Of a stretch of DNA of 64,000 nucleotides, positions 55,603-59,822 are shown piece after piece. The first letter of the stretch is position 1. Each line of letters begins with the position of its first letter. The stretch comes from Clostridia bacterium. Its GTDB lineage: Bacteria; Bacillota; Clostridia; Oscillospirales; Acutalibacteraceae. Location of the stretch: positions 1-64,000 of the forward strand of contig JAUNDK010000001.1 in the NCBI GenBank assembly GCA_030526115.1. The letters are read 5' to 3'. The position numbers and the translations under genes are program-made. The notes under the pieces were generated by a model that did no database searches, was not told where the DNA came from, and saw only the letters and a list, made by a program, of their open reading frames with translations.

Positions 55603-57297
55603 ATGATAAACGGTGCAAAGCTCAGAGATGCTGTCATCTCAGGTGCAAACAACATTATCAACGCAAAAAAGCATGTTGACGATCTCAACATTTTCCCGGT
55701 ACCTGACGGAGACACAGGTACAAATATGTCCATGACCATCGCTGCCGCAAAGGCTGTTCTCGAGGAGATTCCCGATGATGCAACAGTTGAAGAGGTAGCA
55801 AAGAAAACAGCTTCCGCCATGCTCCGCGGTGCAAGAGGAAACTCCGGTGTTATTTCTTCCCTTCTTTTCAGAGGCTTCTCCAAGGGTCTCGAGGGTAAGG
55901 AAGAGGCAGACGGTCTCGCTCTTGTCAGCGCACTCACTCAGGGTGTTGAAGCCGCATACAAGGCAGTTATGAAGCCAACCGAGGGTACTATCCTCACAGT
56001 TGCAAGAGTTGCAAGTGAAGTAGGTGCCAGCGCAGCCGATATTGATAACGACCCTGTTTATGTATGGGGTGCAATCTGCTCCGGTGCAGAGCAGGCTCTT
56101 GCAGAAACACCTGAGCTTCTCCCTGTACTCAAGAAGGCAGGCGTTGTAGATGCCGGCGGTAAGGGACTTTGCCTTATATTTGAGGGTATGCGTTCCGTAT
56201 TCGCTGACGGCGTTATGATCGAGGAGGAGACAAGCGGCACAGCAGGTGCTTCCAAAGACGAGGAGACAGCTGAGTTCTTCGCATCCGTTGCCGCAGAGTT
56301 TGACGAGGTCATCAATTTCACATACTGCACAGAGTTCATCGTAGGCAGAGACCCTGAGTGCGACAAGGATCCGCTCGAGTTAAGACTTTTCCTTGAGACT
56401 ATCGGTGACTGCGTTGTTGTTGTAGACGACGAAGAAATCATCAAAACTCATGTTCATACAGAGAACCCGGGTAATGCCCTTCAGAAGGCTCTCGAGTACG
56501 GCCAGCTCCTTACAGTCAAAATTGAGAACATGAAGGAGCAGCACAGAAAGGCCGCAGAGGAGAACGAGAAGGCAAAGAAGGCTTTCGAGGCAAAGAAAGA
56601 GGAGAAGAAGCTCCCTAAGGCAGAGCCGACAGAGGACTACGGTTTTGTAGCTGTTGCCGCAGGTGAGGGTGTAGAGTCTCTCTTTACAGACCTCGGCTGC
56701 ACACATGTTGTAAGCGGCGGTCAGACAATGAACCCATCAACAGACGACATTCTCGAGGCTGTTCTCGCAACACCTGCAAAGGTTGTTTATGTTCTTCCTA
56801 ACAACAAGAACATCATCATGGCGGCAGAGCAGGCAATTCCTCTCGCAACAGACAGACGTGTTGTTGTTGTTCCGACAAGAACAATTCCACAGGGACTTTC
56901 CGCTATGCTTGCATTTGATCCGGATGAGCAGACAGATGAGAACCGTGAGCTTATGATGGATGCCGCAAGAGCTACTCAGACAGGTCTTGTAACATTTGCG
57001 GCAAGAGATTCTGAGTACGGCGGACACAAGATACACGAGAACGACATCTTAGGTCTTGTAAACGGCAAGATGGAGTACATCGAGAAGAACCCTGCAGATG
57101 CCCTCTACAAGGTTGCCAAGGAGCTTATGGACAAGAACACAGGTTTCGTAACAATTATTTACGGTAACGGCATCACAGAAGATGAGGCTCAGGCTGTATA
57201 TGAGAAGATTGAGAAGAAACTTGGCGGTAAAGATACCGAGGTTACACTTGTTAACGGCGGTCAGCCTGTTTACTACTACATTCTCTCTGTAGAATAA
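55603..57297 (+). CDS. fakA: Fatty acid kinase catalytic subunit FakA/YloV (DAK2)
   Basis: Phosphorylates fatty acids bound to DegV-like FakB for phospholipid synthesis. The 564-residue protein has a DhaL/DAK2 N-terminal domain with the ATP/Mg motif NIFPVPDGDTGTNMSMT near 30-46 and RGARGNSGVI near 75-84. A middle domain contains KTHVHTENPG near 285, and a charged linker (about 310-345, EKAKKAFEAKK) leads to the C-terminal domain. The start at 55603 has an aaagga site; an earlier in-frame ATG does not. It precedes recG as in other Firmicutes. Strong codon bias suggests good expression, unlike recG after it. Confidence 0.93.
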   Translation: MINGAKLRDAVISGANNIINAKKHVDDLNIFPVPDGDTGTNMSMTIAAAKAVLEEIPDDATVEEVAKKTASAMLRGARGNSGVISSLLFRGFSKGLEGKEEADGLALVSALTQGVEAAYKAVMKPTEGTILTVARVASEVGASAADIDNDPVYVWGAICSGAEQALAETPELLPVLKKAGVVDAGGKGLCLIFEGMRSVFADGVMIEEETSGTAGASKDEETAEFFASVAAEFDEVINFTYCTEFIVGRDPECDKDPLELRLFLETIGDCVVVVDDEEIIKTHVHTENPGNALQKALEYGQLLTVKIENMKEQHRKAAEENEKAKKAFEAKKEEKKLPKAEPTEDYGFVAVAAGEGVESLFTDLGCTHVVSGGQTMNPSTDDILEAVLATPAKVVYVLPNNKNIIMAAEQAIPLATDRRVVVVPTRTIPQGLSAMLAFDPDEQTDENRELMMDAARATQTGLVTFAARDSEYGGHKIHENDILGLVNGKMEYIEKNPADALYKVAKELMDKNTGFVTIIYGNGITEDEAQAVYEKIEKKLGGKDTEVTLVNGGQPVYYYILSVE

Positions 57298-57313
57298 TTC
57301 AATTAAAAGAAGC

Positions 57314-57346
57314 AGGAGGTCACAATTTTCTGTGGCCTCCTTTTTA
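57314..57346 (+). terminator. Terminator between fakA and recG
   Basis: Stem aggaggtcaca / tgtggcctcct with TTTTT, only about 20 bases before the recG initiation site. There is no room for a separate full promoter in between. Confidence 0.88.
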
Positions 57347-57365
57347 ATAGAAAGGAGGTGCGCTT

Positions 57366-59429
57366 ACGGCATCTTTATTCAGCATACCCATAGATAAAAT
57401 CAAAGGCGTTGGCGAAAAAACAGCCAAACTCTTTACAAAAATAGGCGCACCCACCGCAGGAGATTTATTAAGGCTTTATCCTCGGAATTACGAGGACTGG
57501 AGCAATGTGGTTGAGATTAACGAGGCGGTTCCCGATGATGTGAATGTAATTAAGGCCACCGTTCTCATGCCCCTTAGGGTAACAAGGGCGGCAGGTGGAA
57601 TGAACATATACAAAACAGATGTCACCGACGGAATAAGCGATATGAGAATAACCTTCTTTTACCGCCCGCCGAATAACCGTATGGCCTACTCCAATTACAC
57701 TCCGTTTGTATTAAACGAAGGTGAGACCTACTATTTCCGTGGCAAGGTGAACCGCTCTTTCTCCACAGTGGAGATGAATTCCCCGGTATATGTCACCGAA
57801 GCGAAATACCGGGAGATGGTGTCTGTTTATCCGCTTACAAGCGGACTCAAGATAAACACCGTACGCAATGCGGTTCGTGACTGTCTTGCAATGCTTCCCG
57901 ACCCCATGGCGGACCCAATACCTGCCGAGATAAGGCAGAAGTATGAGCTCTGCACTTTGGATTATGCCCTTAATAATATCCACTTTCCTCTTGACAGCGA
58001 GGCACTTGCCATAGCTTCGAGAAGGCTTATTTTTGAGGAACTGCTGGTGCTTCAGCTGGGATTGAGAAGAATACGTCAGCGTGTCAAGGCGGAGAATACC
58101 CACCGGTTTGAGAAGGATTACACCGATGAATTCACAGAACTTCTACCCTTCGAGCTTACCAATGCCCAGAAGAGGGCAATAGCCGAATCTGTGGCGGATA
58201 TGATGTCCGATAATCCGATGAACCGCCTGGTTCAGGGTGATGTTGGTTCCGGTAAAACCGCAGTTGCGGCGGCTTTGTGCTACAATGCCATCAGGAATAA
58301 ATATCAGGCGGCCATGATGGCACCTACGGAGATTCTCGCAAATCAGCACTATGAATCTCTTAAGAAACTCCTTGAGCCCTGCATGATAAATGTTGTTCTG
58401 CTTACGGGCTCCGTAAAGGGTAAGGCAAAGAAACTTGCCCTCGAGCAGATTAAAAATGGCGATGCACAGCTCATTGTGGGTACTCATGCTCTGATAAGTG
58501 ATGGTGTGGAGTACGCAAACCTCGGTCTTGTAATTACAGACGAGCAGCACAGATTCGGAGTAAATCAGCGTTCCGCTCTTGCCGGCAAGGCGGATAATCC
58601 GCACACTCTTGTTATGTCGGCTACACCAATTCCGAGAACACTTGCTCTGATGATTTACGGCGACCTTGATATTTCCATTATCAACGAGCTTCCTCCCGGC
58701 AGACAGAAAATTCGCACCGTATGGCGCAGAACAGAGAGTCGCAGGGATATCTACAATTTTATTTCCGCACAGATAGCGGAGGGCAGACAGGCATTCATAA
58801 TCTGTCCGCTCATCGATGAGAGCGAATCAGATATGGCGAGTGTAAACGAATATGCCGAGATGCTCAGGAGCTATTTCCCCGAGGAATATATCGGCGTGGT
58901 TCACGGCAAGATGAAGGCGGCGGAAAAAGATGCCGTTATGGATGATTTCTCTGCGAATAAGCTGAAGATACTTGTTTCCACAACCGTTGTCGAGGTCGGC
59001 GTTGACGTGCCCAACTCCACAATAATGATGATAGAGAACGCCGAACGTTACGGTCTTTCTCAGATTCATCAGCTTCGTGGCCGAGTAGGACGAGGTAAGC
59101 ACCAGTCATACTGTATATTAATCAGTGATGCTCAGAACCAGGAGGCCGTAACACGAATGAAAACCATGTGTGCCCACTCCAACGGTTTCGAGATTGCGGA
59201 GATTGACCTGAAACTAAGGGGTCCCGGTGATTTCTTCGGAGAGCGTCAGCATGGTCTGCCACAGCTCAAAATTGCCGATATGCTGGGCAACATGGACACC
59301 ATGAAAGAGGCACAGGAGGCGGCAAACAAAATTCTCTCTGAGGATCCTTACCTTGAATCAAACAAATACAAAGGACTTAAAGCCGAGACAAAACAGCTCT
59401 TTGACAAGAGCGGCGGCATTACATTTTAA
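57366..59429 (+). CDS. recG: ATP-dependent DNA helicase RecG with apparent ACG start
   Basis: Reverses stalled replication forks and processes Holliday junctions. The reading frame holds a full N-terminus (SIPIDKIKGVGEKTAKLF, DLLRLYPRNYEDWSN), a wedge OB domain, Walker A QGDVGSGKTAVA near 287, DEQHRFG near 395, and the C-terminal LRGRVGRG and DLKLRGPGDFFG motifs. The protein has 688 residues including the initiator, the normal RecG length. The strong ribosome binding site aaaggaggtg (57351-57360) is 7 bases from ACG at 57366. TAG at 57348 blocks extension, and there is no in-frame ATG, GTG or TTG before GTG at 57507. That later start would delete 47 conserved residues and has no Shine-Dalgarno. 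Confidence 0.9.
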   Translation, partial: TASLFSIPIDKIKGVGEKTAKLFTKIGAPTAGDLLRLYPRNYEDWSNVVEINEAVPDDVNVIKATVLMPLRVTRAAGGMNIYKTDVTDGISDMRITFFYRPPNNRMAYSNYTPFVLNEGETYYFRGKVNRSFSTVEMNSPVYVTEAKYREMVSVYPLTSGLKINTVRNAVRDCLAMLPDPMADPIPAEIRQKYELCTLDYALNNIHFPLDSEALAIASRRLIFEELLVLQLGLRRIRQRVKAENTHRFEKDYTDEFTELLPFELTNAQKRAIAESVADMMSDNPMNRLVQGDVGSGKTAVAAALCYNAIRNKYQAAMMAPTEILANQHYESLKKLLEPCMINVVLLTGSVKGKAKKLALEQIKNGDAQLIVGTHALISDGVEYANLGLVITDEQHRFGVNQRSALAGKADNPHTLVMSATPIPRTLALMIYGDLDISIINELPPGRQKIRTVWRRTESRRDIYNFISAQIAEGRQAFIICPLIDESESDMASVNEYAEMLRSYFPEEYIGVVHGKMKAAEKDAVMDDFSANKLKILVSTTVVEVGVDVPNSTIMMIENAERYGLSQIHQLRGRVGRGKHQSYCILISDAQNQEAVTRMKTMCAHSNGFEIAEIDLKLRGPGDFFGERQHGLPQLKIADMLGNMDTMKEAQEAANKILSEDPYLESNKYKGLKAETKQLFDKSGGITF

Positions 59430-59453: not shown

Positions 59454-59822
59454 ATGTCCAATAATTACAATCACACAGAAGAATTTAACTTACTCGATGT
59501 TTCAAAAAACAAGCTGAAGGCTGCTGTATGTTATTTCGGAGCTTTCCTTATCATTCCGCTTCTTTTCTGGAGAAAGTCAGACTATGTAAAGTTCCACCTC
59601 TACCAGGGTTTCGCTCTTTTTGCGGTGGGAATTGCCATTGATGTAATCGATGTGCTCATGGGAATACTCCTCGGCTCAGGCCTTCTTTACGGTATATGGG
59701 GAGTTGTACGTACCCTTCTTCTTATTTTAAGAATAACATTTATGGTGCTTGGAATCTGCAATGCAATCAACGGCCAGGCAAAGGAGCTTCCACTTATCGG
59801 AAAAATCCGTTTTACCAAATAA
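59454..59822 (+). CDS. DUF4870-like small membrane protein
   Basis: 122-residue protein with an N-terminal polar segment and three to four hydrophobic helices. KAAVCYFGAFLIIPLLFWRKSDYVKFHLYQGFALF spans the Tic20/DUF4870-type core pattern (helix, short charged loop with Lys-Phe-His, helix). The end is GQAKELPLIGKIRF. Function unknown. An aaaggag site precedes the ATG, 24 bp after recG, so it is probably cotranscribed; a terminator follows. Confidence 0.75.
   Translation: MSNNYNHTEEFNLLDVSKNKLKAAVCYFGAFLIIPLLFWRKSDYVKFHLYQGFALFAVGIAIDVIDVLMGILLGSGLLYGIWGVVRTLLLILRITFMVLGICNAINGQAKELPLIGKIRFTK

Follow-up and report, generated by a model that had tools for sequence, protein, structure and literature searches.

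Within the 64,000-nucleotide window (the whole stretch of DNA analysed here, from the genome of a gut-type Clostridia bacterium), a recG gene, which encodes an ATP-dependent DNA helicase, is located at positions 57366 to 59429 of the forward strand, and the features of its start region and the upstream gene described below lie on the same strand. The open reading frame is intact and comprises 687 aa when counted from an ACG triplet (57366-57368), which is the proposed start codon. The product matched the RecG equivalog model NF008168 of NCBIfam over its full length with 849.4 bits (cut-off 718), and its RecG domain set is complete, including the wedge domain (PF17191), which begins at residue 9 counted from the ACG, the helicase domains (PF00270 and PF00271), and domain 3 (PF19833), placing it among the RecG helicases. 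Only one full-length copy of recG is present in the genome. Downstream of recG, a small 122-aa membrane-type protein with no Pfam or NCBIfam matches is encoded at 59454-59822.

The start region reads ...CTTTTTAATAG AAAGGAGGTG CGCTT ACG GCA TCT TTA TTC AGC..., in which the Shine-Dalgarno (SD) sequence AAAGGAGGTG (57351-57360) matches the anti-SD complement exactly over 9 bases, AAGGAGGTG, and 7 nt separate the end of its GGAGG (57358) from the ACG. A TAG stop is read directly in frame at 57348-57350, and, as looked for in a near-cognate start, no ATG, GTG, or TTG occurs between this stop and the conserved N-terminus of RecG. The first in-frame canonical codon is a GTG at 57507-57509 (codon 48), which lies 47 codons from the ACG and is the start left to a standard gene caller. 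The preliminary description of this DNA had reported an SD seven bases ahead of the ACG, an in-frame stop just before it, and no canonical codon until 57507, with all of which our reading agrees.

The upstream gene, fakA (also yloV), encodes a DAK2-domain, fatty-acid kinase-like protein (55603-57297; NCBIfam TIGR03599, 586 bits) and adjoins recG in most relatives. An intrinsic-terminator-like hairpin with a T-run lies between the two genes at 57314-57345, with a stem of 11 bp that includes 6 G-C pairs, a loop of ATTTTC, and a folding energy of -18.3 kcal/mol alone. The hairpin proper occupies 57314-57341 and the T-run ends at 57345, which differs trivially from the terminator end of 57346 given previously; the hairpin itself was confirmed by our scan. 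Pairing of the 3' arm of the terminator with the SD is possible (-11 kcal/mol) but was rejected, being weaker than the terminator hairpin itself.

It had been claimed that recG stands behind a terminator and without its own promoter. The hairpin is indeed present, but it is not special to this genome: terminator-like hairpins were found in 37 of 67 fakA-recG intervals and lie within 40 nt of recG in 22 of the 37, and a terminator before recG is therefore a common local arrangement. The fakA-recG gap is 25 nt or less in 22 of the 67 loci, and, of 950 starts in this genome, 21 have a compact hairpin-then-gene junction. As seen from the interval 57297-57366 and its counterparts in relatives (L002-L116), the hairpins differ in stem sequence and often lie only 16-30 nt before recG. 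Transcription is probably terminated in part between fakA and recG, and this partial termination seems to have been kept or to have recurred across the family. The absence of a promoter comes from a crude scan, in which the sole promoter-like match near the gap (57269-57298) scored 9/12, about chance level, and 11 promoter-like matches were found in the region against 7.1 expected.

Start triplet of recG among relatives

The alignment covered recG from 80 genome-contig loci and from 30 genomes belonging to the family or order. In this alignment, the ACG falls on the ATG, GTG, or TTG of the orthologues, and a canonical start is found within 8 codons on either side in 107 of 108 RecG loci, the exception being the recG of this genome. 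Of 150 family genomes, 30 carry the N-terminal motif; recG starts with ATG, GTG, or TTG in 29 of them and with ACG in one, this genome. Members of the close subfamily have A/P/S-S-L-F/Y directly after the start triplet, a pattern that also follows the ACG here, and G001 and G002, both assigned to the same genus, possess ATG at this triplet. RecG identity is 56-60% to the nearest genomes compared and 56-57% to the two other genomes of the genus; an exact AYG-tolerant pattern for the recG start of the same species gave 0 matches in viral contigs. Thus, comparison with relatives bears out the ACG as the orthologous start position, whereas the relatives themselves are canonical. A conserved non-canonical codon, which marks IF3-repressed genes, is not seen in recG, all others examined having ATG, GTG, or TTG. 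The idea that recG generally favours weak starts was also rejected, because non-ATG starts are equally frequent in fakA of these loci (11/32 vs. 21/71, p = 0.65). The start triplets of the relatives indicate that the ancestral start of recG is canonical and that the ACG is private to this lineage or to the assembly.

The C at 57367 could then be an error of the consensus or the assembly, or a mutation confined to the sequenced strain, in a species whose recG start is canonical; the preliminary description had already named mutation or assembly error as the main alternative. One T-to-C change would explain everything, the relatives have ATG, and the draft assembly contains N gaps as well as at least two frameshifts and two in-frame TAGs elsewhere. 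However, when genes were called on 1.75 Mb of this genome by a simple codon-usage method, recG was the sole one of the 963 obtained in which an SD of at least 6 exact bases precedes a start-less stretch coding for a conserved protein, artefacts of assembly-gap Ns aside; the other strong SDs before start-less coding stretches in this gene set yielded no further convincing case. Scaled from the two in-frame TAGs, on the assumption that the same mutations or errors strike start codons, the gene set should contain only about 0.04 detectable start losses, and 0.012 that change ATG to ACG; an error is therefore unlikely a priori, although genuine ACG starts are rare too. In addition, an error or mutation must by chance have struck a gene with a top-1% SD, position 57367 is outside any homopolymer, and no other core gene was seen disrupted except by assembly gaps.

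Apparent start-less genes elsewhere in this genome (G000) were rejected, as they are mostly accounted for by scaffold gaps, such as that in an aspS-like frame of L260, two frameshifts (L247 and L245), and two in-frame TAGs in accessory-type genes (L253 and L199), or are other-strand or edge frames. One apparent frameshift, near position 14200 of L247 (contig C127), affects a sensor-type protein whose signal peptide is in another frame, and the other, near 9800 of L245 (contig C125), a short protein whose gene follows an ABC-transporter-like one. The TAGs (L253:6472-6474 and L199:6238-6240; contigs C133 and C58) are found in the otherwise continuous frames of a secreted-type protein and an acidic repeat protein.

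The SD also bears on the choice between an error and a genuine ACG start. An exact SD match of at least 9 bases is found in only about 0.8% of ATG genes in the same genome, which tips the balance toward a genuine start, although the site was noticed for its striking SD and this rarity, being partly ascertainment, has to be given reduced weight. As well, infC of this genome possesses an ATT start behind GGAGGTG (L147:2586-3155; contig C26), and infC of the genus-mate G002 an ATC start behind the same motif (L263). The classical IF3 arrangement therefore exists in this organism, which can be expected to initiate at non-canonical codons when the SD is strong. On the whole, we regard an error or strain mutation as unlikely, but as an explanation that has to be taken seriously.

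Proposed initiation at the ACG and yield of RecG

The explanation that we favour, and consider probable though far from certain, is a lineage-specific near-cognate ACG start that gives a low level of full-length RecG. The canonical start of recG would have been lost in this lineage, most likely by a change of ATG to ACG that became fixed in the species, and full-length RecG would be initiated at the ACG at 57366 with low efficiency. The initiator fMet-tRNA would recognise ACG as near-cognate, its second base being the one mismatch relative to AUG, while the almost perfect SD would keep the 30S subunit in place. Stronger SDs tend to be found where the start codon is weaker (PMC5622118), and the recG SD is stronger than those of the genus-mates. 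Transcripts of recG would be supplied by readthrough past the terminator-like hairpin that follows fakA, because there is no room for a promoter between the hairpin and the gene.

In a reporter set of E. coli, ACG reached 0.1-1.5% of the ATG level (PMC6925171), and IF3, which represses non-canonical starts (PMC5472188), would be likely to discriminate against ACG as well. By analogy, very low expression of RecG is plausible. Such a low yield may be sufficient, since E. coli contains fewer than 10 RecG molecules per cell (PMC4027168).

A further feature, absent from the preliminary description, is a predicted RNA hairpin at 57350-57380, which holds the SD in its stem and the ACG in a 7-nt loop, GCUUACG (about -11.7 kcal/mol, z about -3.5, none of 200 shuffles being as stable). 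Its stem is formed by pairing of the SD with codons 2-4 (GGAGGUGC with GCAUCUUU), to which three outer pairs are added. The minimum free energy of the recG start region is in the lowest 1% among 577 starts of the genome, and the predicted unpaired probability is 0.14 for the SD and 0.93 for the start codon. The hairpin would be expected to lower initiation further. The idea that it is unique to this recG is weakened by the recurrence of strong start-region folds in relatives, where the SD is able to pair with the conserved Ala-Ser-Leu codons, and by the rank of this fold, 8th of 108 loci. For instance, the recG of L012 has the same design with ATG, in which the SD is in a strong hairpin stem and the start codon in the loop (-13.6 kcal/mol). 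Because similar folds are found in other recG genes, the start hairpin may result simply from the conservation of these codons.

It could also be speculated that recG is deliberately throttled by stacked devices, namely terminator readthrough, an SD-sequestering hairpin with the ACG in its loop, and a start codon rejected by IF3, in which case the level of RecG would track IF3 or the state of the ribosome. We consider such a design improbable.

RecG might instead start at the GTG at 57507 and be 47 residues shorter, with the upstream frame untranslated. GTG is a canonical start codon and GGAG is located 4 nt upstream of it, but this SD is weak and its spacing short. Moreover, the wedge domain would already have begun upstream of such a start, and the aligned orthologues contain the segment of residues 2-47. 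Amino acid identity with the nearest relatives is 0.57-0.67 over codons 2-47 and 0.35-0.47 over residues 48-166, compared with 0.54-0.59 over the N-terminal segment and 0.37-0.40 over residues 48-166 in control pairs (relatives with normal starts); this test cannot date the start change, as a very recent one would leave no trace. Mismatches in codons 2-47 are mostly at third positions (e.g., 16/10/33 of 46 vs. L041), which is a coding-type pattern showing no relaxation relative to the control pairs. The view that the 47 skipped codons encode the conserved N-terminus of RecG is thereby upheld, and the GTG is unlikely to be the true start, which makes a shortened RecG very improbable. Least probable of all, given that the 687 codons are intact with all domains present, that the genome carries no other full-length recG, and that the SD surpasses those of the genus-mates in strength, is early gene loss with the start codon gone and the remaining frame undecayed, even though RecG is dispensable in many bacteria and start loss is one common first step. 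The ACG at 57366 is thus well supported as the recG start position by orthologue alignment, conservation of codons 2-47, and the strong SD; in this respect the earlier interpretation stands, as it does for the terminator, which is nevertheless ordinary for the family.

Significance and comparison with known systems

Because standard gene callers take only ATG, GTG, and TTG as starts, they would give RecG an annotation that lacks 47 residues and with them the conserved N-terminus. Should the ACG start be real, a conserved bacterial repair gene would provide a natural example of it, of a class for which no bacterial case was found in the literature searched. It would add to the known class of near-cognate-start genes, on the strength of one base, and would provide a natural test of a strong SD against a weak start codon in a protein that is scarce in E. 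coli.

In its neighbours the locus follows the fakA-recG order of Clostridia, many species of which also have a terminator-like hairpin between the two genes, while ACG is found in no other recG examined. Similar to recG here, infC of E. coli, Streptomyces, and this genome has a non-canonical start (ATT or ATC) behind a strong SD; however, the infC start is conserved and autoregulatory (PMC5472188), whereas the ACG of recG is seen in one genome and has no known regulatory loop. The ATG-to-ATA change of rpoS in E. coli O104:H4 (PMC12864459) is likewise an isolate-specific start change that lowers the product, although it concerns another gene and another codon and was shown by experiment. The GTC start of sigR in Streptomyces (PMC5472188) involves a different codon and is experimentally proven, while the ACG of recG is known from the DNA sequence and is not conserved; nevertheless, as proposed for recG, sigR is a single gene held low by an extremely rare, IF3-repressed codon.
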